Shown piece by piece: positions 9,742 to 54,111 of a DNA stretch of 64,000 bases. Position 1 is the first letter of the stretch. Every line of letters starts with the position of its first letter. The DNA lies in the NCBI GenBank assembly GCA_029263395.1, contig JAJCXO010000282.1:62001-126000 (forward strand). Direction: 5' to 3'. The DNA is from Acidobacteriota bacterium (GTDB lineage: Bacteria > Acidobacteriota > Thermoanaerobaculia > Multivoradales > J023). Under the pieces are notes generated by a model. It had not been told where the DNA came from. It worked only from the letters and a program-made list of their open reading frames with translations, and did not search any database. A program made the position numbers and the translations under genes.

Positions 9742-9775
9742 CCGATATTCAACATGACCATATCAGAACCCTCTT

Positions 9776-11117: not shown

Positions 11118-11156
11118 CGAGCGCAGAATCTAGGCCCCGGGTCCTAGCGTGTGAAA

Positions 11157-11186
11157 GTATCAATTCTTGATACCTTCGAATTGAAG
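11157..11186. promoter_or_regulatory. Palindromic operator candidate before the orphan antitoxin
   Basis: GTATCAA-TTC-TTGATAC (11157-11173) is a perfect 7-bp inverted repeat. It is followed directly by a second, imperfect one, CTTCGAATTGAAG (11174-11186). The block ends 8 bases before the antitoxin start codon, the usual place for autoregulation by ribbon-helix-helix antitoxins. Confidence 0.55.
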
Positions 11187-11194
11187 GGTTAAAC

Positions 11195-11395: not shown

Positions 11396-11416
11396 TCCTA
11401 AGGGGCCGTTCCGCCA

Positions 11417-11833: not shown

Positions 11834-12042
11834 CGTAGGGGCCGGCTCGCGGCGAGCAATTCGGGCGACCTGTCGATCCCGGCCCCGCTCTGAATCCTCT
11901 CAGCAAGCCGTTCCCGTAGGTAGCGTCGAATCGCCTCCCGAAAGGCTGTGTCCACGGTCTCCTTGAGGCCACGGGTTCCCAGCGCTAATTGGGCCTGAGT
12001 CAACAGTGTATCGTCAACCTCTAGAGTTGTACGTCTCGACAT
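11830..12042 (-). CDS. vapB: VapB antitoxin
   Basis: The 70-residue protein has the VapB type II core: [20 protein letters not shown], then [18 protein letters not shown] chose the ATG at 12042, which gives the usual VapB length. A frame extends 40 codons further upstream but has no family similarity. It is the cognate antitoxin for the overlapping VapC. Confidence 0.88.
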
Positions 12043-12154
12043 CAAACAACTATATATCAGGAAAGCCATTGAATATAGCTCAGCTACCACAATTGGGAAT
12101 CGATGCGCTTTCATGATCGCCCAGACTCGACCCGAAACTTGTAGGATCAGCCAG

Positions 12155-38587: not shown

Positions 38588-38737
38588 ATGAGCGACAGCA
38601 CCCTTCATCAGGATGAGCACCCCCAGAGCACCGAAGAGCCGGAAGTCGCTTCGGAAGCTCAGGAACTGAGCGACGAGGATCTCGAGCACGTTGCCGGTGG
38701 CTGGACTGGCGACGACGGCGGCAACGGCGGGGGCTGA
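38588..38737 (+). CDS. RiPP precursor peptide 1, double-glycine leader, Gly-rich core
   Basis: The 49-residue peptide has an acidic leader ending in ELSDEDLEHVAGG (Gly37-Gly38) and a core of only 11 residues, WTGDDGGNGGG, with one Thr and no Cys. The leader end matches that of precursor 2 (ELSEDELEEVAGG), and both cores start with Trp. The C39 peptidase encoded at 54124 would cut after Gly-Gly. AGGAG lies 9 bases before the ATG, and a strong promoter lies upstream. The core is too poor in Ser/Thr/Cys for a normal lanthipeptide. The next gene may begin inside it. Confidence 0.8.
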   Translation: MSDSTLHQDEHPQSTEEPEVASEAQELSDEDLEHVAGGWTGDDGGNGGG

Positions 38738-39773
38738 CCTCGTTCTGAAGGAGTACCACGCCGGCCTCTGGTGGCCGCTGGTTTCTCGTTATCTGGAGGC
38801 CGCCAACCGACAGCCCCTCGACGACGAGTCTTTAGTCCTCGGACTGCTCCATCGTCTACCGTATGATGCTCTGACTGCTCTGGAATATCCTCTGCGGTCT
38901 GAAGACAGGCCCGCTCTCCCCGACATCTCGCAGCGAATCGAGACACCTTCGCAAGTCGAGTTTTTGGTGGGTGCCTGCGATAGGCCGTGGGCAAAAATGC
39001 TGCGCGACTGGAGTCGGGCCCGCCAGCTCCAAACGTCGGGCCATTTGGCCAAGGTAGAGGCGGTTTGGCTCGAATTCGACCTCCGCCGGACCGAGCAACC
39101 CGAGCCTCTGCTGTGTCTCTACCTGCCGCCTGACGATCGCAACGATTTGCTCGCCTGGCTCGACCTTCTCCCCGGCGGCCCGCACCGGGATTCCAGACCG
39201 CAGCAAGCCGCTACGGTCCAGCGCGCCCATAAAGCGGCTCCGTCCGGCGCCAGCCTGATGTACCTATTCGACCTGTCGGCGCGAGATCCGGGCTCGATTC
39301 GTCTCGAGTGGTTCGGTGTCACTCTTGCTGAAATGGCTCCCTTTCTCGACCGTCTCGGCAGTCCGACCCCTACCTGGTGGAAAAACTTGCCCGAACTGAT
39401 CGGAGACGGACGTCGACTGCACTTCTCTTTCGACATCAGATCCGATGGCACCCTTGGTGATCGCATCGGGATCGAGACCTCTTTTGCCAAGCTACCCCCG
39501 AATGAGCCACGCTGGGGGCAGCTGTTCAAGCGACTGATCGACGGCGGACTCAGTGATCCGCAGGCCCTGGATTCGATCCAACGTTGGCTCGGCCAAGATC
39601 GTTCGACCACCGCTGGGGCGCTCTGGCCACCACAGTCCGAGCTTGCCGACGGCCACTTGGCTCGGGTACTGAGTCACGTCAAAGTTGTCGGTAAAGGGCA
39701 AGAGGATCCGATCGCCAAGACGTACCTGCTCTTTCGCTATCTTGCAGAGCGTCCAGTCAAGAGGTCCGCATGA
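38691..39773 (+). CDS. Uncharacterised RiPP-locus protein following precursor 1
   Basis: I do not recognise this 360-residue protein. It alternates strands and helices: VEAVWLEFDLRR near 120, PLLCLYLPPDDR near 138, RLHFSFDIRSDGTLGDRIGI near 240, and a C-terminal LARVLSHVKVVGKG near 330 followed by AKTYLLFRYL. The ending resembles a motif I recall from proteins found beside other peptide-maturation genes, but I cannot name the family. No ATG is available: the start is TTG at 38691 or GTG at 38697, both inside the precursor gene in another frame, or a CTG near 38745. An AAGGAG at 38748 has no usable start after it. It overlaps the next gene by ATGA. Confidence 0.65.
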   Translation: MPVAGLATTAATAGADLVLKEYHAGLWWPLVSRYLEAANRQPLDDESLVLGLLHRLPYDALTALEYPLRSEDRPALPDISQRIETPSQVEFLVGACDRPWAKMLRDWSRARQLQTSGHLAKVEAVWLEFDLRRTEQPEPLLCLYLPPDDRNDLLAWLDLLPGGPHRDSRPQQAATVQRAHKAAPSGASLMYLFDLSARDPGSIRLEWFGVTLAEMAPFLDRLGSPTPTWWKNLPELIGDGRRLHFSFDIRSDGTLGDRIGIETSFAKLPPNEPRWGQLFKRLIDGGLSDPQALDSIQRWLGQDRSTTAGALWPPQSELADGHLARVLSHVKVVGKGQEDPIAKTYLLFRYLAERPVKRSA

Positions 39774-40495
39774 GTCACCCACCAACGAACGGCCCACCCA
39801 TGAACCTGGTGTCGGCGGCCGATCGCTCACGCAAGGTTTGGATGCAGCACATCGCCGCCAGCGGCCCACCAGGAGAAGACTGGTGCGAAGTCTACGGGCG
39901 CCACGATGAGGTCGAAAGAATCAGTACCGAGGCGCTGGTACTTTTGCGCCAGCATCGTTTGGAGGAAGGTCGGGCGAGGCTCACTGATGCGTCCAAAGAA
40001 CGGCAACAACTGCCGCCAGGACTCCAAGGTTCGATCGTAGCGGTCCTAGATCGATGGTATTTCGGCACCGAGGGTTACGCGCTGTTCCTGGAAGGAGAGC
40101 TCGACCGGGCCGCCGAGGCGATGGAAAAGGCACGCCAGGCGGTGATCGCGGCGCTGTCGGAAGCTCCGTTCTTGATGCCACTCGCCAACCATTGCCAGGA
40201 ATTCACCATGCACCGTGCCCGTATCGAGCGTAACCGGCGACGCTGGGCCGAGATGTGGACACACATCGACGAGGCCCGCAACATGCTCATCGAACGTCAG
40301 CCTTTATGCCGCTTGCAGGACGGCAGCACGATCGACTTGCAGACACTTCAGCACTTCTATGAGGCGCTGGACCTCGCTAAGGAAGAACGTTCGGCGGTTG
40401 GAGTCTTGGACAGCTTGGAGCAGCGTGACCGACTGTTCGGTGCTTTTCTGCGGCGGCTGCTTACGCCTCCAGATTTCACCATCGTCGGGCCCTGA
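39770..40495 (+). CDS. Helical protein of unknown function in the RiPP locus
   Basis: The 241-residue protein is predicted to be all-helical, with TPR-like periodicity: VERISTEALVLLRQHRLEEG near 48, GYALFLEGELDRAAEAMEKA near 102, and a Glu/Arg-rich C-terminal half. It has no motif I recognise. The start overlaps the preceding stop (ATGA), so it is coupled to the unknown protein before it. It may be a scaffold or chaperone for the maturation enzymes. Confidence 0.65.
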   Translation: MSHPPTNGPPMNLVSAADRSRKVWMQHIAASGPPGEDWCEVYGRHDEVERISTEALVLLRQHRLEEGRARLTDASKERQQLPPGLQGSIVAVLDRWYFGTEGYALFLEGELDRAAEAMEKARQAVIAALSEAPFLMPLANHCQEFTMHRARIERNRRRWAEMWTHIDEARNMLIERQPLCRLQDGSTIDLQTLQHFYEALDLAKEERSAVGVLDSLEQRDRLFGAFLRRLLTPPDFTIVGP

Positions 40496-40525
40496 CGGCA
40501 ACAACGAAGAGGTTGGGCGCCGCCA

Positions 40526-41515
40526 TCAGGCATCTGTAATCGCCTTCCACGCCAAGTGATAAGCCAAAGCTTCTTCCGGACGACTGGTGCCGAGGGCATT
40601 GGCAATACCGTGCAGCGCTTTGAACATCGGCGTAAAGTACGCGGCGGTGGCGAATGGATCGAAGCGTTCAGCTGGATACCGATGCTCGACCAGATCGCGA
40701 AGCCGGGCGAGAGCACCCGGCCAGCTCTGCAACTCTTCAGGATTACGCCATTCGAAGGACGATTCGTCCAGAATTCCGTTCAGTCCGCTGGCGGCGGTGT
40801 GGCTTTCGAGCCGGCTCAGCCACTCGGCTTCGTCCGGGCCGGCGGCTCCCGTCCTGACGAGCAGCGCACGGATCAACCAATCTCGATGGTAGGCCAGATA
40901 AGCAGCGGCTGAGTCACCGTCCGGCATCAGTCCTCCGAGACCGTCGATCAACAACTCGAGAAGTAAGCGCCGACGACGCCCCAACGTCATCGGATGCCGC
41001 CACCCAGCAACGAGCTGTTGGCAACCGACAGCCAATGTTTCTACCAGCAACCCAACCACGTCGTCATCATTGAGCAATGGATCAGCGCCCAGGCTGACAC
41101 TGCTGCGACGGTAGCTCGGGAACACCAACCGAGGCGGCGGATCCGGGCCCCGCCCGTTGTTCGCTGCCGCTTCGTCCTCGCTGTCGATCGCAGGCGCCTC
41201 GGTCACTCTCCGCGGTGAAGTGATGGCGGGCAGGTCGGCCAGAAAGGGCTCGCACACCTTGATCAATCGGCCTCGCGTAGCCTCAGCCAAGTCAGCATTT
41301 TGCGAATGAAACCGGATTTTCAAATGCCCGCCACCGAGTGGGTAGCGTAGCCACCAGAGTCGAGCGGAAGCCATGTCGAGTTGCTCGACGATAGGCCGGA
41401 GGCAGCTGTCGACGGCCGCATCGAGGTTCCCCGAACAGTAGAGATTTGCACTCCACACTGGATCGGAGGGCACGGCGGTCGAACTTGCCTGCACAGTCTT
41501 TCCGGAAGGCTTCAC
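40526..41515 (-). CDS. SpaB_C-type (thiopeptide elimination domain) protein, minus-strand copy
   Basis: The 329-residue protein matches the lantibiotic dehydratase C-terminal/thiopeptide-type domain: SANLYCSGNLDAAVDSCLRP near 23, LWWLRYPLGGGHLKIRFH near 53, and a C-terminal helix pair with LHGIANALGTSRPEEA. In thiopeptide systems such proteins eliminate glutamate from glutamylated Ser/Thr or build pyridine rings. It is paralogous to the protein at 41573 (both have YRDWLIR/HRDWLIR and IANALG/LANALG). It starts with GTG and is divergent from that paralogue with a 57-base gap, so it sits in the opposite direction inside the maturation genes. Confidence 0.8.
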   Translation of the reverse strand: MKPSGKTVQASSTAVPSDPVWSANLYCSGNLDAAVDSCLRPIVEQLDMASARLWWLRYPLGGGHLKIRFHSQNADLAEATRGRLIKVCEPFLADLPAITSPRRVTEAPAIDSEDEAAANNGRGPDPPPRLVFPSYRRSSVSLGADPLLNDDDVVGLLVETLAVGCQQLVAGWRHPMTLGRRRRLLLELLIDGLGGLMPDGDSAAAYLAYHRDWLIRALLVRTGAAGPDEAEWLSRLESHTAASGLNGILDESSFEWRNPEELQSWPGALARLRDLVEHRYPAERFDPFATAAYFTPMFKALHGIANALGTSRPEEALAYHLAWKAITDA

Positions 41516-41572
41516 TTGGCCACCTGCTCTTCACTGGTCATCTGTCAGTCAATCATAGACAATCATGCTGTC

Positions 41573-42643
41573 ATGAAGGTCTCAGATCAACCGAAAGGTG
41601 ACTCTCCGAACACCAATGATTTGTCGGCGGCTACAACGCGACGACCCGATCCTCTGTTGACCGCCAGTCTCTACGCTTCCGGTGCGATTGACGAAGCCAT
41701 CACGGGATGGATCGTGCCTCTCCGGGCTCGCTTGCTCAGCCTCGAGGGAGACTCTGGCAGGTACCTGTGGCTCTGGCGTCACACTCGACATGGAGAGCAC
41801 CTCAAGCTCAGGATCCACGCCGACCCTGGCAAACGAGCTGAGCTGTCCCAAGCCGTGGAAGAGACTGCTCGAGGATTCCTTGCCAAGCTTCAGCCACACG
41901 AACCATCGGCGCCAAGCCGTTCTGCATCGCGGCCACCGATCGACGCCGACGAAGACTCCGAACCGTTACCTCGCGATCGATCGTTCCGGTTCACTCAATA
42001 CCTTCGTCAAGCACCGATTCTTGGTAATCCTTTGCTCCAGGCTGACGATGAATACACCGATCGTTTCTGCCGATGTTCAGGTTTTGGCCACCACTGGTTC
42101 CTGGATGAACTCGGCACGTCGGGTTGGAGTCGGGAACTGCCAGCAACTTGGTTTACGATCTTCTTCGCGACTGCGATCGAGGTGGCCGGCATTGCCCCGG
42201 GTTCCTGTCTCCGAACCTATCGGGACTGGCTGATCCGCCTGCCGCTGCTGAAGATGAAGTCGACTCAGCAACACGCCGATGCTTGGACTCTCAAACTTCA
42301 GCAGCGTTCGAGCGCCTGGGACTCAGGTGGTTTCGAAGATCTCCCGAGCGCTCTCGAGAGGGCTTCCGGAACGATGGCTGCGGCCTGGCGTGAAGCACTC
42401 GTTTCGCTATTCGATTACGCCCGGATCCATGCCGAGACCCCGGCCTTCGAACGTGATCCGTTCGCCCGCACGATTCTAGATCTGCCTTTGGCCAAAGTCC
42501 TGCTGGCGCTCGCCAACGCCCTCGGCTTGTCGATGTTCGATCAAGCGGTGCTAGTCCATCGCCTGCTCGCGACACATGACCCCGAGCTCGCCGCCGAGAG
42601 CCTTCGCCTGGAAGCACCCAGCGCTTTGGAAGCTTCTCGATGA
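41573..42643 (+). CDS. SpaB_C-type (thiopeptide elimination domain) protein, copy 2
   Basis: The 356-residue protein has LTASLYASGAIDEAITGWIV near 28, RYLWLWRHTRHGEHLKLRIH near 63, and TYRDWLIRLPLLKM near 220. The central FIRY...HLRLRF motif of the family has become WLWRHTRHGEHLKLRIH, so one usual Arg-Tyr is changed while HLKLR is kept. I chose the ATG at 41573. Its stop overlaps the dehydratase start by ATGA, which suggests the two proteins work as partners, as the glutamylation and elimination halves of a split LanB. Confidence 0.82.
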   Translation: MKVSDQPKGDSPNTNDLSAATTRRPDPLLTASLYASGAIDEAITGWIVPLRARLLSLEGDSGRYLWLWRHTRHGEHLKLRIHADPGKRAELSQAVEETARGFLAKLQPHEPSAPSRSASRPPIDADEDSEPLPRDRSFRFTQYLRQAPILGNPLLQADDEYTDRFCRCSGFGHHWFLDELGTSGWSRELPATWFTIFFATAIEVAGIAPGSCLRTYRDWLIRLPLLKMKSTQQHADAWTLKLQQRSSAWDSGGFEDLPSALERASGTMAAAWREALVSLFDYARIHAETPAFERDPFARTILDLPLAKVLLALANALGLSMFDQAVLVHRLLATHDPELAAESLRLEAPSALEASR

Positions 42644-45315
42644 GCCGTTTGCGAGCCCGGCCGTTTTTAGTCCGTGTGGCTGGCTTGACGGGGTCGGCGC
42701 TGACCCGATTGCGCTCACCAGAGTTACTAGCGCAAGTCGAACAATGGTTGCTCCTGACAGACCGGCGGGCATTGGCGAGAAGCCGCCTCGCTGACGAGCT
42801 CCATTCATGGATTGGCAGTGCCGAGGCAACCGAGCGGCGTGAGCTCCTCGCTTTGCGACGGGATTGTCACAACGGCCGGCCGCTCGAAAAATACCGGAGC
42901 CAGCCGCTGTGGAAGCGGGTGATGCGAGACAGCTCGAACGCGCCCGAAGTCGTCGATCTCGAGGCACAGCTCGAACGCTTGCGTGAGACCCTGGCGCAGA
43001 CTTTCCAGCAACAGCGGGAGAGGGCCTTGGAGGTGCTCCTCGACTCGGCGGTAGACCCCGGCTTTCGGCGTGGGCTCGCCCTCGCTAGTCCGGCTCTTTC
43101 AAAGCGTCTCGAAGGCACATCCGGCATCTCGAACGCCAAAGATCTCAACGCGCTACCAGCGCGTCGCCGACGAAAAATGGAATCCAGCCTGCTGCGTTAC
43201 GTCAGTCGCGGCGCCGCCAAACTATCGCCATATTCCACCTTGACTCGGGTCGCCATCGGTCAACTCGTCGGCGAGGAACTCGAGTCGCCGATCCACTGGC
43301 CAGTGGGTCGCTGGCACGAGCACTCTTTGCTTCGCAGTCGAAGGTATCTCACGGAACAACTGGTCGAAGCCTGGCAACGGCACCCTGCTGTACGCCGTCA
43401 GTTGGCGCTGGTCGTCAACCCTTCGATCGAGCGGATCGGCGATCAGTTGCGGTACTTGCGACCACCGGCTTGGCGAATCGACGAGGCCGGGTGTCTGAAG
43501 ACCCGGCCTTTGAAGCTTGCTCGGACCGAGGCGGGCGCGGTGACAGCTGAAGTTCTTGCCTTGGTGGATTCGGGAAACTCGACGGTTGTGGATCTCGTGG
43601 ATCGGCTCGCAACATCGTTCGAGATCGACCCTGCCAGGGCAAAAGCTCTTGTCGACAAAATGATCGATCTCGGACTGGTCTCTGTGCGCCTTCCCTGGGA
43701 CGATAGCTGTGATGTTCTCGAGGCCGAACTGCTCGAGGGGCTACGGCGATTGGGTGGACCTCGATCAGCGGTCGACTCGCTCGAGGCACTGCTGGCGGCG
43801 CAGCGTGGATTCTTACAATCCAGGGATCCGGCTGCAACACTGCGCGAGGTCGTTTCGAATTTGGAGAGTGCCTGGGAGGCCCTGGCACCGGGCGCCGGTT
43901 TCGAAGGGCTCGCGCTATGGCGACCGCATGCCAACGAATTGTTCGAAGACGTCATCATGAAGCCGGAGGACCCTTCCGGCCCGGGGGTTTTGATGTCAGA
44001 GGTGCAGGCGGAAGCGACACTCGACGCTTTGAATCCCTGGCTACAGCTCTCGTTCCTGACAGACCAACGATTCGACTTCCTACATACCGTCACCGCTGCG
44101 ATGCACGCTTCCCGCCCCGGAGCCGACAGCCTCACTCTGCTCGACCTCTATTCTGAGATCCAACCGCTCTGGCGGCAATTCGTCGCCCATGAGCGTCAGG
44201 TTGGAGATGCTTGGGACAAACCCTTCAATCCGCTCGACCTGCCAGCCATCCGCGAGCTCGGGAGCCTGCGAAACGATCTCTTTCAGCGCCTGCACAATGC
44301 AGCGGAACGCGCCGAGGGAGGCTCCATACCCTCTGCTGTGATCACCGAAATCGTGGCACACATTCCCCTCCGGTATCGCGTGCCGGTGGAACCCTGTGCT
44401 TTTGTTCAGCCAGCCGACAAGCGGGGAGAACAATGGGTGGTCAATCAAATCTTCGAGGGAACCGGACGCTTCAGCACCCGTTACGCCAGTCTGCTAGCCG
44501 GAGACGGCAGGCGCCGATTCCTGGAGGCATTTCAGCAACGAAGCATTCAGTCTGGAGAGCCGGGGGCCGTGGCGTTGATGGATCTGCCGTGGAATCATGG
44601 AGACAACCTTGCGGTCCACCCTGCTTCGACGCGCCTCGCTCTGGTGACGCCTGGAGAGAACTTCGATCCGCTGTCTCCGTCGATACCTACCGGCTACGAA
44701 CAAGTCCTCGCTCCACCGGACCTCCGAGTCCTTATTCCCGCGGCACCTGAAGAGCTACCGGACCTGGTCGGATGTGACGGGCGACGATTAACGGCCGTTC
44801 ATCTGGGTGGAGTGGCGGCACGATTCCTCCCCTCTTGGCTTCAATTTGTCTCACTTTGGGGCCCGCGAGGCGCTACCACGGTTTTGCCAGCCGCTAGCTG
44901 GCGACGAGAGCGGGGTATCGAGGTCAGCGACCGATGGACAGTCGGCGGATTGATCATCCGACGCAAGCGCTGGCGTAGTCCCGGTGCCGTGCTACTCGCC
45001 AGAGTGGGTCGTGCTGATCTCAAGGGATTCCTGGGGCTTCACCAATGGCTGCGCGATGTCGGCATACCTGATCGGGTTTTCTTCATCGAAAAGACTATCG
45101 AAGGAGACAGCATACGCCGAAAGCCCCAGTACCTCGACTTCTCTTGCCCTCTGTTCGTCGAACTCTTGCAGCGCTCGATTCGTGGAGGCAATGTCATTTT
45201 CGAGGAGGCTCTGCCAGTCCCTGACGATTTTCCTCTTGCCTACGATCGAGAGCCCCGGGCACAGGAGATTCAACTCGATGCGCTCGCTCTGCGAGGACCC
45301 TCGCCTGTCGAATGA
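42640..45315 (+). CDS. LanB-type dehydratase, glutamylation domain only
   Basis: The 891-residue protein is a full-length lantibiotic dehydratase N-terminal domain: RARPFLVRVAGL at the start, ARRRRKMESSLLRYVSRGAA near 175, SPYSTLTRVAIGQL near 196, and the late motif RKPQYLDFSCPLFVELLQ near 828. It should attach glutamate from Glu-tRNA to Ser/Thr of the precursor. The C-terminal elimination domain of full LanB is absent and is supplied by separate proteins, as in thiopeptide, goadsporin and pyritide systems. Its length far exceeds that expected of a PEARL peptide-aminoacyl-tRNA ligase only in the late part, so a PEARL role is less likely. Confidence 0.88.
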   Translation: MSRLRARPFLVRVAGLTGSALTRLRSPELLAQVEQWLLLTDRRALARSRLADELHSWIGSAEATERRELLALRRDCHNGRPLEKYRSQPLWKRVMRDSSNAPEVVDLEAQLERLRETLAQTFQQQRERALEVLLDSAVDPGFRRGLALASPALSKRLEGTSGISNAKDLNALPARRRRKMESSLLRYVSRGAAKLSPYSTLTRVAIGQLVGEELESPIHWPVGRWHEHSLLRSRRYLTEQLVEAWQRHPAVRRQLALVVNPSIERIGDQLRYLRPPAWRIDEAGCLKTRPLKLARTEAGAVTAEVLALVDSGNSTVVDLVDRLATSFEIDPARAKALVDKMIDLGLVSVRLPWDDSCDVLEAELLEGLRRLGGPRSAVDSLEALLAAQRGFLQSRDPAATLREVVSNLESAWEALAPGAGFEGLALWRPHANELFEDVIMKPEDPSGPGVLMSEVQAEATLDALNPWLQLSFLTDQRFDFLHTVTAAMHASRPGADSLTLLDLYSEIQPLWRQFVAHERQVGDAWDKPFNPLDLPAIRELGSLRNDLFQRLHNAAERAEGGSIPSAVITEIVAHIPLRYRVPVEPCAFVQPADKRGEQWVVNQIFEGTGRFSTRYASLLAGDGRRRFLEAFQQRSIQSGEPGAVALMDLPWNHGDNLAVHPASTRLALVTPGENFDPLSPSIPTGYEQVLAPPDLRVLIPAAPEELPDLVGCDGRRLTAVHLGGVAARFLPSWLQFVSLWGPRGATTVLPAASWRRERGIEVSDRWTVGGLIIRRKRWRSPGAVLLARVGRADLKGFLGLHQWLRDVGIPDRVFFIEKTIEGDSIRRKPQYLDFSCPLFVELLQRSIRGGNVIFEEALPVPDDFPLAYDREPRAQEIQLDALALRGPSPVE

Positions 45316-45421
45316 GTCGGCGCTCTGATTCGCAGGATGGCGACAGCGATTGGATCAGCCAGGTCGATTGGAGGCGCCCCACTCGACACTCCTGATTGCG
45401 TAATGTCGCCTAACCAATCCA

Positions 45422-45451
45422 TTGGACAACAGATAGATGCATCAGTATCAT
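45422..45451 (+). promoter_or_regulatory. Possible promoter of RiPP precursor 2
   Basis: TTGGAC, an 18-base spacer and TATCAT lie in the 232-base gap between the dehydratase gene and precursor 2. The small palindrome CCAAT-CC-ATTGG overlaps the -35 box and might be an operator. The transcript would have a leader of about 90 bases. Confidence 0.4.
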
Positions 45452-45547
45452 TGGCTGATTAATTCGTCGTGCACTTGTGTCTCTTGCAACCGGCATAGGT
45501 GTGTCTTGTCACCAGGGGTTCTGCCCCGACCAGTCTAGGAGATCATC

Positions 45548-45727
45548 ATGGATCAAGAGAAAGTAAATGCCGTCAAGGACGAGATGAAGTCCCGCCTAGA
45601 GCAGCTCGAGAACATCGATGCTGAAGAGCTCAGCGAAGACGAGCTTGAAGAAGTAGCCGGCGGCTGGTGCTCCTGGCGACGTTGCTCGAACGCTCCAGAA
45701 GAGGATTCCACCCCTGAGGAACAGTAG
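45548..45727 (+). CDS. RiPP precursor peptide 2, double-glycine leader, Ser/Cys-containing core
   Basis: The 59-residue peptide has a charged helical leader ending in AEELSEDELEEVAGG (Gly38-Gly39) and a 20-residue core beginning WCSWRRCSNAP, with two Cys, three Ser and one Thr, and an acidic tail. Ser42 and Ser47 lie in CS pairs separated by Trp-Arg-Arg. These residues could be dehydrated and joined to Cys or to each other. TAGGAG lies 6 bases before the ATG. The gene has its own stem-loop downstream, consistent with high expression relative to the enzymes. Confidence 0.85.
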   Translation: MDQEKVNAVKDEMKSRLEQLENIDAEELSEDELEEVAGGWCSWRRCSNAPEEDSTPEEQ

Positions 45728-45781
45728 GGGTCTGCTCTCTTGGATGTCGCCGACAGGTTCTAGAGCCACTCGGTGACGTCA

Positions 45782-45814
45782 ATAGAACGGCGCCCTTAGT
45801 CGGCGCCGTTCTAT
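45782..45814 (+). terminator. Perfect 13-bp stem-loop after precursor 2
   Basis: ATAGAACGGCGCC, a 7-base loop and GGCGCCGTTCTAT form a perfect stem 55 bases after the precursor stop codon and 78 bases before the next gene. No T-run follows. It probably stabilises the precursor mRNA or attenuates readthrough into the two enzyme genes. Confidence 0.65.
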
Positions 45815-45891
45815 CGCTCTAGCCCGCCATGGCCTCGAAAAGTCCTGTGCTACTCCCTCCAGGCCCGCCTTTTTTGCCGTAGGATTCATCT

Positions 45892-46818
45892 GTGCACAGG
45901 CTCGGCTGTACCCTTTACCTTTGGTCGCCGGACGAACAAGATCGTTTTCTACGCGACGCGCTAGGGCCTTTTACCCATCGCGTCCTGGATTCTGGTCTCG
46001 TGAGTGGATTCTGGTTCGATCGTTTCGACGCTCGGGGCCCTCATGTGTTCTTTGTTTTGACGACTCGAGAGAACACTGTCGGTCCACTCGAACGCGAGGT
46101 CCGCAACCTGCTCGAGGGGTGGCTCGAGACACCGCCGTCGAAGCCGCCTCTCTCGCTCAGCGACTTGGAAGCACTACACGTCGCCTGCCGTGGGAAGACC
46201 CTGTGTGCCGCCGACCGGCTCGATGGGTTCGCGACGCATTCGAGCTTCGAGATCTTCTCGCATCCAATCTCAGGTTACCCGTTTTCCCTTGGACGGTACT
46301 TCGGGGAGGTTCTGGACGCCGACGCTCCTGACGAGTCTCCGTGGCGCGCATGGACAGAAACAGCCTTTTGGACAATCGGACTCCTTGGGAAGCCAGTGCT
46401 CGCTCCGGTCATGCGTTGGCTCGCCGCGATCGATCAGCTCATGGATGATGAACAAGCAGCGGACTTCTGGCGCTACTCGTTGCGCTGCCTGCTCCCCGAA
46501 TTGCCTATGCTCGAAAGCCTCGACAAAGTTGATACCGCAATGCTCGAGCGTTTTATCAGCGACAAGAATCTTCCGGTACTGCGGGATCTCTGGGATATTG
46601 ATCTCCACTACACCGCTTCGTCCGAGCTTGCCGATCCAACCGCACTGGTGCGAGCTGGGCTGGCACCTGCTCTGGACGCCCATAGGTGGAAATTTCTGCG
46701 GGAAGTGGTCTTCGTGACCTTGAAACAGATGCGGATTCGGATCCGTCGGCAGGCACAACTCTACGCTTTTGCGCTCGATCGCAGGCTGAAACTGCGAGCG
46801 GTGGGAGACGTGGATTGA
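45892..46818 (+). CDS. SpaB_C-like protein with degenerate core motif
   Basis: The 308-residue protein has the family layout: CTLYLWSPDEQDRFLRDALG near the start, then GFWFDRFDARGPHVFFVL near 38 in the position of the FIRY...HLRLRL motif. The His is kept but the Arg residues after it are replaced by hydrophobic ones, so it may bind peptide without catalysing elimination. It starts with GTG, with AGGA 7 bases upstream. Its last bases overlap the next gene. Confidence 0.72.
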   Translation: MHRLGCTLYLWSPDEQDRFLRDALGPFTHRVLDSGLVSGFWFDRFDARGPHVFFVLTTRENTVGPLEREVRNLLEGWLETPPSKPPLSLSDLEALHVACRGKTLCAADRLDGFATHSSFEIFSHPISGYPFSLGRYFGEVLDADAPDESPWRAWTETAFWTIGLLGKPVLAPVMRWLAAIDQLMDDEQAADFWRYSLRCLLPELPMLESLDKVDTAMLERFISDKNLPVLRDLWDIDLHYTASSELADPTALVRAGLAPALDAHRWKFLREVVFVTLKQMRIRIRRQAQLYAFALDRRLKLRAVGDVD

Positions 46819-47822
46819 ATCGGTGGTACGCGTGGCACTTGCACTATCACGCCGGACTCACACGGGTGTTGGCCGAGCTCGTCGGCCCTCTGCTCAGTCC
46901 GTGGATCAAGAATCGCCAGATCGATCGTTTTTTCTTTATCCGCTACGCCCTCGGGGGGCCCCACCTGCGGCTACGCCTTCGGCTCGAACAAGGTGTCTCC
47001 AGTCAAGATCTTGGACATGAGCTAACCGAGCGAGCGAGCAACTTCTTCCAACGTTATCCCTCAATGGAGAGTTGGAGTGAGTCGAAAATTCGACAGACTG
47101 ACGCCAAATTGCTAGCCGACAGTGAGGTCGTGCTTACCGAAAGCGATCTTGAAGGAACGGTTCCTGACGAACGAGTCGTGCCGGCACCCTATCTGCCGGA
47201 AATCGATCGCTACGGCGGGGCCGAGCGCCTGGGCCCGAATCACGACTTTTTCACTCTTTCGAGCGCCATCGCGTTGCATACTTTGCATGGTTACTCCGCC
47301 AGCGACGGTCGGCGACCGAGTCGCATTCGGCTGCTGCCGTTGCTGCTGGCGCAAACGGTGGGCGGTTCCGCGACGGCTGCTGAAGCCCGCTCGATCATAC
47401 GCTATCCCCCCGCCGAGGCGTGGAAGGCCTTCGCACCGGTAGTGAATAAGGCGGAAGCTCTCTTCGACCGCGACCATGGAGCGTTCGCGGAACTGATCAG
47501 CGAAACGGTTACACGCATGAACTTGCCGGAGACTGCGGAGGGGAAGCTCGCCAGAGGCGCTGGGTATCTGGCACGGCTCTGCGAAGACTCCAAGACTCGT
47601 CGCCGAGTTCTCTGCAGCCAGCTCCACATGACTGCAAATCGACTCGGGTTGAGCAATGCCGAAGAGGTCTACTTATCCCACATCGCGACGCGATGTTTCG
47701 ACCGCTTCTCGACATCCTTCACTGAGGTTCCCCAGACCGATTTGCCACCGACTGAAGCACCTCGACTCCTAGGTGAGCTCGTCGAAAGCTGCCTCATGCC
47801 CCTACTGCATCGAAGTGATTAG
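46815..47822 (+). CDS. SpaB_C-type protein with intact motif
   Basis: The 335-residue protein is the most typical family member here: WYAWHLHYHAGLTRVLAELV at the start, RFFFIRYALGGPHLRLRLRL near 37, and PYLPEIDRYGGAERLG near 125, the signature of thiopeptide-type biosynthesis domains. It is the best candidate for glutamate elimination from the precursor. The start is TTG at 46815, overlapping the preceding stop (TTGA) with GGGAG upstream. It converges on the cyclase-like gene with a 30-base gap. Confidence 0.85.
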   Translation: MNRWYAWHLHYHAGLTRVLAELVGPLLSPWIKNRQIDRFFFIRYALGGPHLRLRLRLEQGVSSQDLGHELTERASNFFQRYPSMESWSESKIRQTDAKLLADSEVVLTESDLEGTVPDERVVPAPYLPEIDRYGGAERLGPNHDFFTLSSAIALHTLHGYSASDGRRPSRIRLLPLLLAQTVGGSATAAEARSIIRYPPAEAWKAFAPVVNKAEALFDRDHGAFAELISETVTRMNLPETAEGKLARGAGYLARLCEDSKTRRRVLCSQLHMTANRLGLSNAEEVYLSHIATRCFDRFSTSFTEVPQTDLPPTEAPRLLGELVESCLMPLLHRSD

Positions 47823-47852: not shown

Positions 47853-50800
47853 TCAGTCGGTCACCGCCATCGAATCTGCGCGCTCGACCCAGATAGGCAG
47901 CTGAAGTTTTTCGAACGCACCTCGCGCCTGATTGAAGTGCACCTCCGCGCCCTCGCGGTCCCCGGCCAATTGATCCAATCGACCGAGCTCGAGCTCGATC
48001 CGCGCCGCTTCGAACGGGATGTGCAGTTCTTCAAAACGCTGGCGCGCCTGGTCGAGCCAGTCCTTAGCAACTTGTACTTCACCCGCTTCGATTGCAATCC
48101 TAGCGAGAGCTGCTTGTGCCAAGCCAACACCGTAGAGAAAGTTCGCTTCCTTCGAAGCCTGGCGTCCCCTTTCAGCCGAAGCCCGTGCGTTATCGAAGTC
48201 TCTCTGAGCTAGGTAGGCTTCGCCGAGGATCGCCGCGAACCAGCCTTCGAGCTGCTGCATCCCGGCCTCTTCCATCAGGGTAGCCGCTGGCTCTAGGTAC
48301 TCGATCGCAGCCGCCGGGTCCCCCCCTTTTTGTAACAACGCATGCCCGAGAAACCCGGCGGAGACCGCTGAGTTCAACGGATCCTGCGATCGTTCCAGAC
48401 CGCGACGACATTGTTCGATGCCAGTTTCCGCTTCACCCAACGAGGCATAAAAATAGCCGAGGCTCCACGATGAGTCCAAACGCACATCGTCGAGCGCGTC
48501 GCCGAGCGCCAAAGTACGTTCGACGGCATCGATCGCCTGTTCAAAGTGGCCGAGGACATAGTGATTGAATCCGGCAACCCAATACGCCTGCCCTTGCCAC
48601 CAGGGTTCTCCGTTGCGCTCGAGCAAAACCACCGCACGCAGGCTGTTCTCTATACCGGTCTGGAACTGTCCCGACCAGAAACCATCCCGTCCGAGCACAT
48701 AACAGGCTTTGCCTTCCGTCGTCTCGTCACTGCATTCGCGAGCCGCGGCAATCGACTTCTCGGCGAAACTCCGTGTCTCATCCTGCATTCCCAAATAGGT
48801 GTAGGTGTGAGCGAGCCAAAAGTAGTACTGACCAGCGAGGCGGGGGTCGCCGAGTGACTCGAGTCGTTCGAGGTATTTCAGGAAGAGTTCGAGGGTCTCC
48901 GGAAAGGACGCCAAGGGCAACAAGGATTCTGCGAGCTGCAACAAGACTTCGACTGAGCGGAGATTGCGTTCGGCCGCTGGCAGCATCTCCACTTGGTCGA
49001 GAGCTTCACGGAGCGCCCTCGCCGCTTCCGTGTGAGCGTAAGCCTCAGCAGCGCGGTCGGCAAACAACGTCAGGTAGTGAATTGTTTTCTCCGGCTGGCC
49101 AGCTTTCGGGTAATGGTAGATCAGGCGGTCGTATACTTCTTCGAGACGGTCTTGATAAAGGGACTCGAGCGCCTGTGAAACCCGACGATGCAAACTCTCG
49201 CGGCGCGAGGCGAGCAGACTGCCGTAGATCACTTCCTGAGTCAGGGCGTGTTGGAAGAAGAAGGTAACTTTGTCTTCTGCCGGAGCTTTGTAGAGCAGCT
49301 CCCAACGTTGCAAATCCTCGAGCAATCGCTCGAGGTCCGCAGGCCGATCCCAGATCTCACGCAGCAACTCGATCTGGAGCTCGCGGCCGAGGACCGACGC
49401 GGTTCGTAACAGTTGTTTATGCTCGTCGGGCAGTCGGTCAACCCTCGCCATCAGAATACCCTGGACGGTGTCGGGGACGGTCTCTCCGGAAGAACCACTG
49501 ATCAGTACCCGCGCCATCTCCTCGAGGAAAAACGGATTGCCCTCGGCCTTTTCCAATAACTCCGTTGGTGGCTCACCAGCGTAGTCGGCCCGGTCGAACA
49601 GCGATCGCACCAGGCTGTGGCTGTCATCTTCGGAAAGCTGGCCCATATTCATGCTGGTCGCGTAGGATTTATCGATCCATTTCGGTCGATACCCGGAACG
49701 GTAGGTCAGCAGCAGCAGCAAGCGGGTTGGCGCCATGACCTCGATCAACGAGTCGAGAAACTCGGCGGACGTGGCATCGATCCACTGCAAGTCCTCAATC
49801 TCGACCACCACCAGGGACAACCGGCTGGCATCGAGCAGCATTCGCCGCATCGCCGCAAACGTCCTGGCTTGGATGGCCTGAGGCTCGAGCTCGTCCAGCG
49901 CTTCGGTCCCCTCACGAACTCCGAGCAGCTTCAGGAGAAAGGGAAGGGTCTCTTTACTCTCGGTGCCGACCGCCTGCAAGCTCCGCGTCAGCTTGCCATG
50001 AATCTCAGCCGGACCATCGCTTCCAGAGATCCGCGAAGCCTTTCGAATCATGTCGGCGAGCGGTAGATAGGGTACGCCCGAAGCGTACGAAACGCATTGG
50101 CCACGCAAGTAGCTGGCTTTCTCGGCACCAAAAAATGTGCGGCGATACAGGCTGTGGAGTAGACGAGACTTGCCCGAGCCGGCCACACCGGTCACCGCTG
50201 CAACTTGACCCTGCTTCTGGCGAGCACGATCGCGCAGCTCCTCGAGTACCGACAACTCACGAACGCGGCCTACAAAAGGGGTCGCGATACCATCAACGAA
50301 AGGGCTTGGTGTCTCGAAATCCGTTCTCTTCGAGACCCGCCATACGTCGAACGCTTGTCCGTCGTCGCCCCCCGCTGACTCGAGTTTTTCCAGAGCAGTC
50401 TGGCTGGCGACCAGGCGTGCGGTTTGATCGCTGATCAGAATCTCGCCAGCCAGCGCTTGCCGTTGAAGGCGTGTCGCAATATTGGTGGCTTCGCCGATCG
50501 CCATGTCACCGCCGCCGCCAATCACTATCGAACCGGTATCGAGACCAATACTCACTGACCAGGCAAGACCGTTTCCAGTGCCTTCTACCAGCACCTTTCG
50601 TCGGACCCCCTGCGCCGCCAAGATGGCTCGCTGAGGATGATCTTCGTAGGCCATCGGTGCTCCGAAGAGCGCCATGAACTCTTGGCCGGACACACTGTGG
50701 ACAGTACCGCCATAACGCGCTGTCTCTTCACGCGAAAGTTCCAGGAACCGTGACAAGATCTCATGCATCGCATCTGGTGTCGGTGCTCCGGCAGTCTCTA

Positions 50801-51086
50801 GGGCACAACGCAGCACTGTGACCTGCTTGCGCTCCCCCTCCGGTGAGGCCAGAGATTGGTGAACCACAGGGGGCAACGGCGTATCCGGCACCAGCGGAAC
50901 GGCTGCGGCTTCAGCCCCCGAGGCCTGACTTGCTGTCCCAAGCGGCTTGCCGCAATCTCCGCAGAAACGATACGAAGGCAACATTTCTGCACGACATTCC
51001 GGGCAGCGAACAACCAATCTGGTGCCGCAGTGCACACAGAATTTCATCGAATCGGGACTGTCGGATCGGCACTGTGGACAGTTCAT
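47853..51086 (-). CDS. Zinc-ribbon/cyclase-like/AAA/TPR protein, cyclase part degenerate
   Basis: The 1077-residue protein has two zinc ribbons (CPQC, CVHCG, CPEC, CGDCG in residues 3-46), a class III adenylate cyclase-like domain (about 88-255), a STAND/AAA ATPase domain with Walker A GVAGSGKS near 300 and EIEDLQWIDATSAEFLD near 430, and about 500 residues of TPR repeats. In active cyclases the two metal Asp residues sit in the first strand and before MALFGAP; here these read VTVLRCALETAG and VSGQEFMALFGAP, without Asp, so it should not make cyclic nucleotide. It lies 46 bases after the exporter ABC gene on the same strand and may regulate it. Confidence 0.82.
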   Translation of the reverse strand: MNCPQCRSDSPDSMKFCVHCGTRLVVRCPECRAEMLPSYRFCGDCGKPLGTASQASGAEAAAVPLVPDTPLPPVVHQSLASPEGERKQVTVLRCALETAGAPTPDAMHEILSRFLELSREETARYGGTVHSVSGQEFMALFGAPMAYEDHPQRAILAAQGVRRKVLVEGTGNGLAWSVSIGLDTGSIVIGGGGDMAIGEATNIATRLQRQALAGEILISDQTARLVASQTALEKLESAGGDDGQAFDVWRVSKRTDFETPSPFVDGIATPFVGRVRELSVLEELRDRARQKQGQVAAVTGVAGSGKSRLLHSLYRRTFFGAEKASYLRGQCVSYASGVPYLPLADMIRKASRISGSDGPAEIHGKLTRSLQAVGTESKETLPFLLKLLGVREGTEALDELEPQAIQARTFAAMRRMLLDASRLSLVVVEIEDLQWIDATSAEFLDSLIEVMAPTRLLLLLTYRSGYRPKWIDKSYATSMNMGQLSEDDSHSLVRSLFDRADYAGEPPTELLEKAEGNPFFLEEMARVLISGSSGETVPDTVQGILMARVDRLPDEHKQLLRTASVLGRELQIELLREIWDRPADLERLLEDLQRWELLYKAPAEDKVTFFFQHALTQEVIYGSLLASRRESLHRRVSQALESLYQDRLEEVYDRLIYHYPKAGQPEKTIHYLTLFADRAAEAYAHTEAARALREALDQVEMLPAAERNLRSVEVLLQLAESLLPLASFPETLELFLKYLERLESLGDPRLAGQYYFWLAHTYTYLGMQDETRSFAEKSIAAARECSDETTEGKACYVLGRDGFWSGQFQTGIENSLRAVVLLERNGEPWWQGQAYWVAGFNHYVLGHFEQAIDAVERTLALGDALDDVRLDSSWSLGYFYASLGEAETGIEQCRRGLERSQDPLNSAVSAGFLGHALLQKGGDPAAAIEYLEPAATLMEEAGMQQLEGWFAAILGEAYLAQRDFDNARASAERGRQASKEANFLYGVGLAQAALARIAIEAGEVQVAKDWLDQARQRFEELHIPFEAARIELELGRLDQLAGDREGAEVHFNQARGAFEKLQLPIWVERADSMAVTD

Positions 51087-51132: not shown

Positions 51133-54111
51133 TCATGAGATCTGGCGGGTCGCTAGACGATGGAAGGTACCCCCCATCGCCATCAATTCATCATAGCTGC
51201 CTTGCTCAGTGACACGCCCCTTTTCCAACACGTAGATTCGGTCCGCGTGGCGTACCGTCGTGAGCCGATGAGCGACGACCACCCGCGTCGGTTTCAAGCG
51301 TTCGAGGCTCCTGCCGACCAACTCCTGAGTGCGGTTGTCGAGGGCGCTGGTAGCTTCGTCGAACAACAGAAGTCGGGGACGGTGGACTATGGCCCGAGCA
51401 ATCATCAAACGCTGGATTTGGCCACCAGAAAAACTGCCGCCCTCTTCACTGATGATGGTGTGCATTCCCATCGGCATAGCCTTGATGTCGTCCGCAAGAC
51501 CGGCCATTTCAGCCGCCTCGATGGCTTCCTTCATACCGAAGTTCGAAGTACCTACGATATTGGTGAAGATATCTCCGATCATCGGCTGGCCGTTCTGTAA
51601 CACGACCCCCATCTGTCTCCTGACCGACTGCACGTCGAGGGCCGCAAGATCCTGGCCGTCGTAGTAAATCGAGCCCGCTTCCGGCTGTTCGAAGGCCAAC
51701 AGCAAACGCAGCGTTGTCGACTTGCCCGAACCTGAGGGGCCTACCAGAGCAATGAACTCTCCTGGACGGGCACGGATCGAGATGTCGTCGAGGATCAGAG
51801 GACCGTTCGGATCGTAACGAAAGGAAACGTGGCTAAGCTCGATATCACCCGACAGATCGCCAGCAGCCGCCTTGGAAGCGTCCACTTCGGGCGGTGTTTG
51901 CAGCAGCGGACTCAGGCGTTCGTAAAGCGGCACCATCGTCAACACGCTCGACAACAGGCTGATGAGCGCTAGAGAAGTCACCTGAAATTGGCCGAAGGCG
52001 GCTGAAAAGGCCAAGAAGTCGCTGACCGGCAACTCGATCTCCGACCAAAAGTGGACCGCTGCAAACATCGCCATGAGGCTGATAATCGCAAATACCGAGT
52101 TGAAGGTGTTCTGGCCGTTGGCGAGGTGCCGTACCTTGAACGTCAACTTCCGCATCTCGCCGAAGCGTTTTGCCCACAACGAGAAAGCGCGAGGCTCGGC
52201 ACCGGCACCACGCAGCTTCTGGATGCCGTTGAGCAGGTTGAAGACCAGGCTCGACAACTTGCCCTGCATCTCCAGTAGCCTGCGTTGATAACGGACCTGC
52301 AGCCAGACGATGACTGCGGTGACCAGGACTAGGACCAAGGTCATGGTCACCGCCACCAACGCTAGGCGCCAGCTATAGTAGAAGAGGAGGATGAGGCTGA
52401 GGATCGAAGAAATCGAGTCGAGGAACGAAGTGGCAACGTTGCCGAGGATCAGCGTACGGATCTGATCGATGCCCATCGACCGCGCCAATAAGTCGCCGAC
52501 CGTGAAACGCTTGTAGAACATCACTGGGAGAGCGAGCAATCGATCCCACACAGCAGCCTGCACAGATCCGTCGAGCTTGCCTGATAGACGCAGGATCGCG
52601 ACTGCTCGAGTCAACCGGAAGCCGAAAACTGCAACCGCAGCGACCGCCAGTGCAAGGGCCATCTGTGTCAGTTGTGAACGTTCGGCCGCAGGAACGACGG
52701 TACCGAAAATGTGACCGGTCAGGATCGGTGTCAGCAGCGACAACAGTCCGGTCGCCACGCCGATCGCGCCGAGCGTCAGCAGATCTCGACGACGTCCACG
52801 TATTCCCAAACGGACGAGGTCGACCAGGCCAACCGCTCTCTCGGGAAGCGGGGAATAGAACATGAACGCTTCGCCTTCGAGCGTCGCCGCGATATCGGCA
52901 TCTATCGCCCGCCTCTCACCGGTTGCCGGATCAGCCAGCTCGTAGCTAGTGGCGGAAGTCGGTAGCAAGGCGACCGGTTTGCCCCGCAACCGATGTTTGG
53001 GGTTCGGCGCGCCTTCCTTCCAAAGGAAGCCTAGAAGTGGACCGTTATCGCGCCGCCACCAGTCGCCGCGCAAGATAACCAAACGTTGACGTATCCGCGA
53101 AGCTGCGCAGATCATGGCAATCGCGTGTCCGTGGTGGATCTGGCCTCGGGCATTTTGGGGTCGCTCGATAGTGATCCCCATCTGTTCACCTACCCAGGAC
53201 GCGGCCAGCAACAGTGAATCCGCGGCTTCTCCATCGGTGAGGTCGGCAGCCGGAGCAACTTGTTGCGACAATACTGAAGCCAACCTCCGCGTTGCCATTC
53301 CCAAGACTCCGCGATCATTCAGCTGCCGACGACGTAACCGCTCCACTTCGTCGTGTCGCGACTCTCCGACGATCAGGTCGACATACCCGAGAAACAGCTC
53401 ATGAAAGCGCGCCAGGCCTTCCCAGACGGCGCCGCTGGCGATCAGGTTCTCAGTGCCAACACAGGAGACCGTCGCCCCCTCGGTGCTAGTCATCCAAGTT
53501 TCGTCCGAGAGCGGCAGTAGGAAACCTGCAACTCTCATGGGCAACGCACTTTGACCGAGGAAAAAAGACTCGCCGGTGATGTGGCGGACCCACACGACCC
53601 CAGAGGCCGACCGTGCAGCACCATCGCCTTCCAAGGTCACCTCGTCACCAGCGGCGACGGTCTCGAAATTCTTGGGCGCTGCAGCTCGGGGCACCTTGGC
53701 GAACAAGTCGGACAGCCACGCCTCGACGCCGGAACAAATCGCTCCGAGGTGCTCTGCTTCGCGAGCCAACTGGACCAAGGACTGGATCGACGCCTTCAGG
53801 AGACGGGTTTCGGGCAGCCCGACAGCAATCAGAGCCGTCGCCCGCGACTGCTGGTCGCGCCGCAAGAAGGACGTAGCGGAGCTCTGCCGCTGCGGCTGGA
53901 TACCAAACAGCATACGGCCGGCCTCGATCGTAGTGACGTGGGTCCGTTGCCCGCGGTGTTCAGGATCGACGGACACTGCAAAAATCTCGACTTTCCCGGA
54001 CTCCACCAACCAGACATTCGGTTCTTTGTCGAGGCGGATGGGCTCGTTGCCTCCGAGATCGATGACTTCGGCACCGATGGCAATCAAGCTAGTGCGGGTA
54101 ACAGTATCCAT
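51133..54111 (-). CDS. NHLM-type peptide exporter ABC protein with cNMP-like N-terminal domain
   Basis: The 992-residue protein has an N-terminal part resembling a cyclic-nucleotide-binding domain (EPNVWLVESGKVEIFAV near 28), a long linker, six membrane helices (about 430-700) and an ATPase domain with VGPSGSGKST near 792, FSGGQIQRLMIARAI and LLLFDEATSALD. There is no peptidase domain. It matches the ATP-binding component of NHLM bacteriocin export systems (TIGR03797). It lies 12 bases after the C39-bearing exporter gene, so the two probably form one machine or alternate exporters. Confidence 0.88.
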   Translation of the reverse strand: MDTVTRTSLIAIGAEVIDLGGNEPIRLDKEPNVWLVESGKVEIFAVSVDPEHRGQRTHVTTIEAGRMLFGIQPQRQSSATSFLRRDQQSRATALIAVGLPETRLLKASIQSLVQLAREAEHLGAICSGVEAWLSDLFAKVPRAAAPKNFETVAAGDEVTLEGDGAARSASGVVWVRHITGESFFLGQSALPMRVAGFLLPLSDETWMTSTEGATVSCVGTENLIASGAVWEGLARFHELFLGYVDLIVGESRHDEVERLRRRQLNDRGVLGMATRRLASVLSQQVAPAADLTDGEAADSLLLAASWVGEQMGITIERPQNARGQIHHGHAIAMICAASRIRQRLVILRGDWWRRDNGPLLGFLWKEGAPNPKHRLRGKPVALLPTSATSYELADPATGERRAIDADIAATLEGEAFMFYSPLPERAVGLVDLVRLGIRGRRRDLLTLGAIGVATGLLSLLTPILTGHIFGTVVPAAERSQLTQMALALAVAAVAVFGFRLTRAVAILRLSGKLDGSVQAAVWDRLLALPVMFYKRFTVGDLLARSMGIDQIRTLILGNVATSFLDSISSILSLILLFYYSWRLALVAVTMTLVLVLVTAVIVWLQVRYQRRLLEMQGKLSSLVFNLLNGIQKLRGAGAEPRAFSLWAKRFGEMRKLTFKVRHLANGQNTFNSVFAIISLMAMFAAVHFWSEIELPVSDFLAFSAAFGQFQVTSLALISLLSSVLTMVPLYERLSPLLQTPPEVDASKAAAGDLSGDIELSHVSFRYDPNGPLILDDISIRARPGEFIALVGPSGSGKSTTLRLLLAFEQPEAGSIYYDGQDLAALDVQSVRRQMGVVLQNGQPMIGDIFTNIVGTSNFGMKEAIEAAEMAGLADDIKAMPMGMHTIISEEGGSFSGGQIQRLMIARAIVHRPRLLLFDEATSALDNRTQELVGRSLERLKPTRVVVAHRLTTVRHADRIYVLEKGRVTEQGSYDELMAMGGTFHRLATRQIS

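Follow-up and report, generated by a model that had tools for sequence, protein, structure and literature searches.

How a peptide could be closed into rings at a locus with a split lanthipeptide dehydratase (LanB), four proteins laid out like the SpaB_C elimination domain and no gene for the cyclase LanC is the question raised by a gene run from an Acidobacteriota bacterium (genome G000; 10.68 Mb, 291 contigs, 96% complete). The window, i.e., the whole stretch of DNA analysed, covers 64,000 nucleotides (62001-126000 of contig JAJCXO010000282.1, here C282). The run within it encodes LanB, the SpaB_C-type proteins S1-S4, two precursors of ribosomally synthesized and post-translationally modified peptides (RiPPs) with Gly-Gly (GG) leaders, and a predicted prenyltransferase, open reading frame (ORF) 38691 (Table 1). 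The reading that we favour, with a confidence slightly under even, is a two-product RiPP island, in which one peptide would be dehydrated by LanB and S4 and closed by thioethers without LanC, and the other would be prenylated on Trp.

LanB matches the class I glutamylation domain PF04738 (2.8e-18, residues 139-415 of 891), and its best sequence relative in the PDB is 6ec7 ('Lantibiotic dehydratase domain protein'), which we take to be TbtB; PF14028, the elimination domain, found no match in it in the Pfam scan. The preliminary description of the locus, made from the sequence without database searches, had named a stand-alone glutamylation protein, four SpaB_C-layout proteins, two small GG-leader precursors and the absence of LanC and YcaO, and all of these were borne out by the Pfam matches and translations, S2 joining the SpaB_C group through its homology to S1 (phmmer about 2e-20). 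PF14028 matches S4 over the whole profile (5.5e-35), S1 (7.3e-8) and S3 (3.9e-5) over roughly its first quarter, and S2 weakly (0.0069, below the cut-off); near-whole-profile matches were found among the relatives for three proteins of the family formed by S1 and S2 (S1/2; 6.3e-8, 1.1e-7 and 0.0032) and for one S3 (6.5e-8).

In NisB, as described in the accessible text of PMC9486935 and PMC9011353, Arg784 and Arg786 serve the gamma-carboxylate, beside a conserved Glu823, Arg826 and a His base. S4 and its three relatives (4/4) keep the motifs R-x-R, E-x-x-R-Y-G-G and H-M-x-x-[NS]-R, one of them with Ser for Asn in the His motif, and S4 thereby has the Arg/Arg, Glu, Arg and His of a class I glutamyl lyase. 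The assignment of these motifs to NisB residues is presumptive, coming from our own alignment. For comparison, a canonical lyase profile was made from 20 PF14028 domains of the order, chosen by ExxR[YF] and H-x-x-x-[NS]-R and thus containing the motifs by selection; it aligned only the first third of S1-S3, so the sequences and MAFFT alignments were used to judge whether ExxRYGG is lost and what has become of the His. Among the eight S1/2 genes (seven whole, one in two frameshifted pieces), Lys or Gln replaces the first Arg in 8/8, the second is kept in 8/8, ExxRYGG is absent from 8/8 and the His is kept in 7/8, the exception being the window's S2; S1 has Lys for the first Arg, retains the His and lacks ExxRYGG. 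Both Arg are lost throughout the S3 family (3/3), with the His replaced by Phe in the window and present in two relatives. As far as sequence can tell, S4 is the sole lyase by motif among the four proteins, S1/2 and S3 being two diverged families, and it is likely the glutamate-eliminating partner of LanB.

Relatives were sought in genomes of the order (72) and of the phylum. The S1/2 profile counted ten order genomes, of which six were accepted as real (G000, G238, G298, G300, G333 and G347); the other four matches were weak (4e-7 to 5e-5), fell onto other SpaB_C proteins and were left out. In 396 phylum genomes five were counted, two of them weak, and the three strong matches all lie within the window's order. 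LanB found matches in 8/297 phylum genomes, only that of G238 being close (33% identity over most of the length). An insensitive short-pattern contig scan gave no match for LanB and a single contig for the S1/2 alignment (QIHU01000177.1, Acidobacteria SZUA-115). PDB profile searches with the S1/2 and prenyltransferase families yielded nothing useful, and S4 and S1 as single PDB queries yielded weak matches only.

In G238 (99% complete), the genes are divided over two contigs. Beside LanB, S3 and S4, the first encodes one S1/2 protein, a JmjC protein, a relative of the TPR-like protein g39770 and a precursor whose core is AEIDEGDCDSWWCCSNTNA; on the second, the exporters and the AAA protein are accompanied by the prenyltransferase and a Trp-first precursor, by another S1/2 protein and by a precursor whose core is ICSIWCCSGQIERSPDIQ. 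Neither LanC nor YcaO has a match anywhere in this genome. A different partner appears in G300, where S1/2 and g39770 adjoin a complete LanM (DUF4135 2.5e-117, LANC_like 4.1e-60), the prenyltransferase and one precursor; in G347, a frameshifted S1/2 and g39770 share one short contig, and LanM pieces, the prenyltransferase and a precursor with a core resembling that of G300 lie on another. Judged by gene neighbourhood, the partner of S1/2 is LanB in some genomes and LanM in G300 and probably G347, which makes it unlikely that S1/2 acts on glutamyl esters alone; G333, described below, speaks against this. Relatives of g39770 accompany S1/S2-type proteins in 6/6 genomes and occur in G346 without S1/2, and G352 has LanB, S4, a JmjC-like protein and a repeat-rich precursor with neither S1/2 nor S3.

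The eight S1/2-associated cores, those of the precursor 2 type, were examined for five residue pairs at spacings of 1-8 (40 tests, 4000 shuffles). Cys-Cys at +5 is found in 7/8 (shuffle mean 1.4; 0/4000 reach 7), with the LanC-bearing G298 as the exception, Ser/Thr-Ser/Thr at +5 in 7/8 (shuffle mean 3.0; 0.1% reach 7), Ser/Thr-Cys at +3 in 7/8 (0.4% of shuffles) and at +4, i.e., Ser/Thr-x3-Cys, in 6/8 (2.4%), all of these statistics being too favourable because the cores are related by descent. A dipeptide is repeated as CS-x3-CS, with variations, in the LanB loci and as SC-x3-SC in the LanM loci, and nested thioethers (inner i/i+4, outer i/i+6) fit both. Every core has at least two Cys (8/8); that of precursor 2 has two, together with Ser3 and Ser8 at the i/i+5 or i/i+6 spacing of pyritides, a Ser pair that is not present in every relative.

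The Ser pair at i/i+5 was the reason why a pyritide-like route was first favoured, in which S1/S2 (or S3) would act as pyridine synthase and form a 14-membered ring (our own count from i/i+5) from two dehydroalanines at a distance of five residues, as in pyritide A1. The accessible text of PMC9247985 has Ser1 and Ser6 used in the MroA1 pyritide, G238 without YcaO or LanC agrees with such a route, and for the two S3 proteins scanned the TbtD/PbtD pyridine-synthase model NF045556 gives higher scores (21.5 and 35.7 bits) than the general model does (20.1 and 19.5 bits, respectively). The scores of that model range overall from 16.6 to 48.2 bits against a cut-off of 325, are highest in S4-type proteins rather than S1-S3 (best window protein S4 with 46.5, best relative 48.2), and are lacking in 5/5 S1/2 relatives scanned; the comparison with pyridine synthases made in the preliminary description is accordingly weak. 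Together with a G333 precursor copy that has Lys at the second Ser/Thr position, and with the complete LanM beside S1/2 in G300, these scores demoted the pyridine route to a rival that we regard as improbable. Moreover, the cores here are Cys-rich, whereas the M. rosaria precursors are Cys-free, and GG sites and a peptidase-exporter are present, whereas pyridine closure expels the leader. Thioethers are preferred because the LanM of G300 keeps its cyclase domain, because of the G333 Lys copy and because the cores are rich in Cys.

Precursor 1 was grouped with precursor 2 in the preliminary description; the two probably go with different enzymes, precursor 1 with ORF 38691, and it was rejected as a LanB substrate (no Cys, one Thr, a prenyltransferase as partner). 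For ORF 38691, whose start is uncertain (the listed TTG overlaps precursor 1), neither Pfam nor NCBIfam gave a significant match, and no PDB sequence was matched by the profile of its family. Its AlphaFold2 (AF2) model, built with 15 family sequences (predicted local distance difference test, pLDDT, 87), shows the alpha-beta-beta-alpha barrel of five hairpins of the ABBA/DMATS fold. The best 50 of 60 Foldseek matches (E <= 0.001, best E 1.1e-6) are all aromatic-type prenyltransferases, at TM-scores of only 0.37-0.55, and so are the 50 matches listed by VIA (Z 14.7-16.6, root-mean-square deviation (rmsd) 3.8-4.9, 253-299 residues aligned), at 6-13% sequence identity. The 15 sequences have invariant E, D, R, K and Y columns, which may include the diphosphate-binding and acid residues of such enzymes, and a predicted fold is no proof of activity.

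The prenyltransferase search gave 18 matches in 17 of the 72 order genomes, of which 15 were examined; a second, partial match in G301 (3e-36) and two weak or partial ones were left out. A GG precursor with a core Trp adjoins 14/15 of these genes. Trp is present in 14/14 of the adjacent cores and first in 10/14, with no Phe, Tyr or His in any, and Cys is absent from 11/14; in the other 17 GG cores of the same loci, Trp is present in 2/17 and first in 1/17. With near-identical copies collapsed, Trp comes first in 10/14 adjacent vs 1/10 other cores (p = 0.005). Both sets were chosen by eye from pattern lists, evident wrong-strand listings being ignored, one of which adjoins the prenyltransferase of G152, counted as precursor-less. 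From the Trp in 14/14 adjacent cores, we infer that ORF 38691 prenylates Trp. The sole Trp-first core among the 17 others is precursor 2 of the window, which may be a second substrate.

For the two-product island we infer every reaction of the course below, and with it how the ring residues pair, which prenyl donor is used and what S1-S3 do. LanB would glutamylate Ser of precursor 2 from Glu-tRNA, S4 would eliminate the glutamate to leave dehydroalanine, and the neighbouring Cys would close a thioether ring (Ser3-x3-Cys7) without a LanC cyclase, possibly with a nested second ring (Cys2/Ser8). S1/S2, S3 and g39770 would take no part in glutamate elimination; they would bind the dehydrated core, position it or close it. 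In the other product, ORF 38691 would prenylate the first core Trp of precursor 1. A single NHLP-type peptidase/exporter would serve both, its peptidase cutting behind GG after modification. A further step, which we consider doubtful, would make S1/S2 (with g39770, perhaps S3) a LanC-independent ring-forming family on the glutamyl-lyase fold; if true, these ring formers would act on (CS)x3(CS) or (SC)x3(SC) cores, no matter whether the dehydroalanine came from LanB or from LanM.

Several observations weigh against the two-product island as drawn here. The structural comparisons of ORF 38691 have the low TM-scores and identities given above, and the AF2 model of S1 (three-sequence alignment, pLDDT 38) was left unused. 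The spacings come from kindred cores and 40 tests, and a Ser/Thr pair at i+5 also suits the pyridine route. The absence of a LanB-like ORF around the S1/2 and LanM of G300, in itself a point in favour, applies to a 17-kb stretch (LanB not searched genome-wide there), and genome-wide absences are no better than the PF14028 search, which overlooked even the S1/2 gene of G300. The confidence was lowered from even because of G333, in which S1/2, LanB, two precursors (GSFTCSIFKC...), g39770, the prenyltransferase with its precursor, the AAA protein and the exporters lie together: no SpaB_C-like ORF other than S1/2 is seen within 19.9 kb of LanB, S4 and S3 have no match in the genome, its single PF14028 match lies on another contig and is not this protein, and S1/2 could be the lyase there. 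Within these 19.9 kb there is no LanC-like ORF (LanC not searched genome-wide). The proposal in the preliminary description that one SpaB_C protein eliminates glutamate and the others act otherwise is supported for the window, where only S4 has the lyase motifs and the others are diverged and conserved, and is less secure for G333.

The G333 locus, like the fusion of S1/2 to LanB in G298, would also suit S1/S2 as divergent glutamyl lyases in the manner of SptBb and the CoiSA domain; the locus would then have two kinds of lyase, each with its own target residues, and its rings would arise in another way. Since such lyases exist and lack the His or Arg826 (according to the accessible text of PMC9011353 and PMC9486935), the loss of motifs is no proof of lost activity. 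LanM, the partner of S1/2 in G300 and probably G347, uses no glutamate, and an S4 with all motifs is at hand in the window, G238 and G298, which leaves this explanation rather unlikely.

G298, of the same genus as G000, also bears on LanC. It has the S1/2-LanB fusion (1254 aa), a precursor, g39770, S3 and S4; a LanC overlaps the start of the fusion, a second LanC-like protein lies beyond S4, and both the overlap and the LanCs on other contigs of G000 count against a LanC-free pathway. The module is therefore not inherently LanC-free, as the preliminary description implied, and the part of that claim that stands is G238, without LanC or YcaO genome-wide. In G000, the LanC family PF05147 has two matches (C274 and C123) and YcaO two (C64 and C160), with none of either on C282, so that, as in G238, the YcaO that makes thiopeptide azoles is missing from the locus; the window proteins show no similarity to four LanC/LanM sequences, and the ten scanned have no Pfam match to a LanD-like flavoprotein (LanD not searched genome-wide). 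A LanC or YcaO tied to the locus from elsewhere had been named beforehand as what would speak against it; LanC and YcaO genes do lie elsewhere in G000, the LanC of C274 and the YcaOs having neighbours of their own. The YcaOs were rejected as serving the locus on this ground, the neighbours being read by eye. A separate class I set occupies 7134-13119 of L017 on C274, with a LanB-like protein of 1000 aa, a SpaB_C protein and LanC in a 682 aa ORF.

These LanCs would permit an ordinary class I lanthipeptide with LanC supplied in trans and S1-S3 only binding or chaperoning the peptide, as could the LanC in the homologous G298 cluster and the extra elimination-domain proteins already described in class I clusters (accessible text of PMC7268733). 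We think that LanC is not part of the window pathway in G000, because G238 has no LanC match, the LanC of C274 has its own LanB and SpaB_C, and the two LanCs of G000, alike among themselves (6e-196), are far less like that of G298 (1.9e-21 and 1.4e-29); supply in trans is unlikely, if the foremost of the alternatives. Far less probable is LanB as a PEARL (peptide aminoacyl-tRNA ligase) adding an amino acid to a scaffold peptide. Its short form without an elimination domain, the missing LanC and the Cys-free precursor 1 would suit this role, but a lyase-competent S4 (by motif) stands in the same gene run and the precursor-2-type cores have at least two Cys in 8/8, precursor 2 included, whereas the PEARL clusters described in the accessible text of PMC11002830 have Cys-free precursors.

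Set beside known systems, the locus resembles the split-LanB class I lanthipeptides (pinensin, SapT) in its separate glutamylation and lyase proteins and Ser/Thr-Cys ring spacing, and differs from them in lacking LanC and having three further SpaB_C proteins without lyase motifs. Additional PF14028 proteins are shared with the class I clusters of PMC7268733, where an extra stand-alone elimination-domain protein is suspected of other chemistry, and with the coi cluster (PMC9486935), where one was shown to give other stereochemistry, both according to the accessible text; unlike those, the window combines a split LanB with three extras from two families, its locus lacks LanC, and one relative adjoins LanM. 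With pyritides (MroB/MroC/MroD) it shares a short LanB, a separate lyase, a further SpaB_C, a Ser pair at i+5 and the absence of YcaO and LanC, and it differs in its Cys-rich core, GG leader with peptidase-exporter and poor pyridine-synthase match. The role of extra lyase-like SpaB_C proteins in peptide clusters is an open question in print (PMC7268733, accessible text), which is now testable with two divergent SpaB_C families that are conserved alongside a simple core containing a few Cys and Ser, in a near-complete genome without a LanC match (G238) and beside LanM (G300).

For ORF 38691, the nearest description is MppC (mpp), an ABBA-type enzyme that prenylates Trp in a LanM product and depends on the leader (PMC12715784, accessible text). 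Both are alpha-beta-beta-alpha prenyltransferases whose target is Trp in a RiPP precursor with a long leader (fold and target predicted here), and G300 and G347 pair the enzyme with LanM; unlike MppC, 11/14 adjacent cores are Cys-free and 10/14 Trp-first, the likeness being one of description. The indole prenyltransferases PriB, IptA and FgaPT2 (DMATS/ABBA) have the same predicted fold (VIA Z 15.6-16.3, rmsd 4.1-4.5) at 8-13% identity, and act on free Trp instead of the peptide proposed here. The window family, predicted to have a prenyltransferase fold, is missed by sequence searches; its putative substrates are very short and mostly have Trp in first place, and it may be of use in peptide lipidation. 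In titles and abstract openings, mostly outside subscription papers, we recognised neither S1/2- or S3-type proteins nor Trp-first prenyltransferase-linked GG precursors in Acidobacteria.

Table 1. Genes of the RiPP island and its flank, in positions of the window
Feature	Position	Strand	Description	Basis
precursor 1	38588..38737	+	leader ...ELSDEDLEHVAGG, core WTGDDGGNGGG; no Cys, one Thr, Trp first	translation
ORF 38691	38691..39773	+	aromatic/indole prenyltransferase-fold protein	predicted model
g39770	39770..40495	+	TPR-like protein	weak TPR matches
S1	40526..41515	-	SpaB_C-type, S1/2 family	PF14028
S2	41573..42643	+	second S1/2-family protein	homology to S1
LanB	42640..45315	+	glutamylation protein without elimination domain	PF04738, 6ec7
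precursor 2	45548..45727	+	leader ...EELSEDELEEVAGG, core WCSWRRCSNAPEEDSTPEEQ	
S3	45892..46818	+	SpaB_C-type; both gamma-carboxylate Arg positions gone	
S4	46815..47822	+	SpaB_C protein, full glutamyl-lyase signature	
AAA/TPR protein	47853..51086	-	zinc-ribbon / AAA_16 / TPR protein; weak nucleotide-cyclase match (PF00211 0.0012, below cut-off)	Pfam
ABC transporter	51133..54111	-	membrane domain + ATPase	Pfam
exporter	54124..56427	-	NHLP-family peptide export ABC transporter with peptidase domain	TIGR03796 1085 bits, cut-off 853

S2, LanB, precursor 2, S3 and S4 are co-directional, with four-base overlaps at S2/LanB and S3/S4 and S1 opposite, and precursor 1, ORF 38691 and g39770 form a second plus-strand unit. 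The exporter peptidase likely removes the GG leaders, and the ABC transporter next to the exporter is presumed to be its partner. Relatives of the AAA/TPR protein, possibly a dedicated regulator or sensor, share the fetched stretch with 9/15 prenyltransferase genes, adjacency not being constant.

Homologous JmjC_2-type proteins are found at 14852-16087 of L016, 10510-11751 of L034 and 8884-10086 of L143, beside LanB in two genomes and LanM in the third, and are possibly lanthipeptide hydroxylases. In L036 (G350; 5897-13860), the space between the same AAA protein and exporters is taken by genes read by eye as ATP-grasp and radical SAM, together with GG precursors of their own, and an S4 relative there seems to have a broken frame; it looks as if the exporter island exchanges its modification modules. 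An ARAGORN tRNA call at 2886-2974 of the window, with an undetermined anticodon, is probably spurious. Finally, L147 (G301) carries at 13058-14876 seven Cys-rich GG precursors in tandem, most with cores like CTGCEGCDRCNGCDG.

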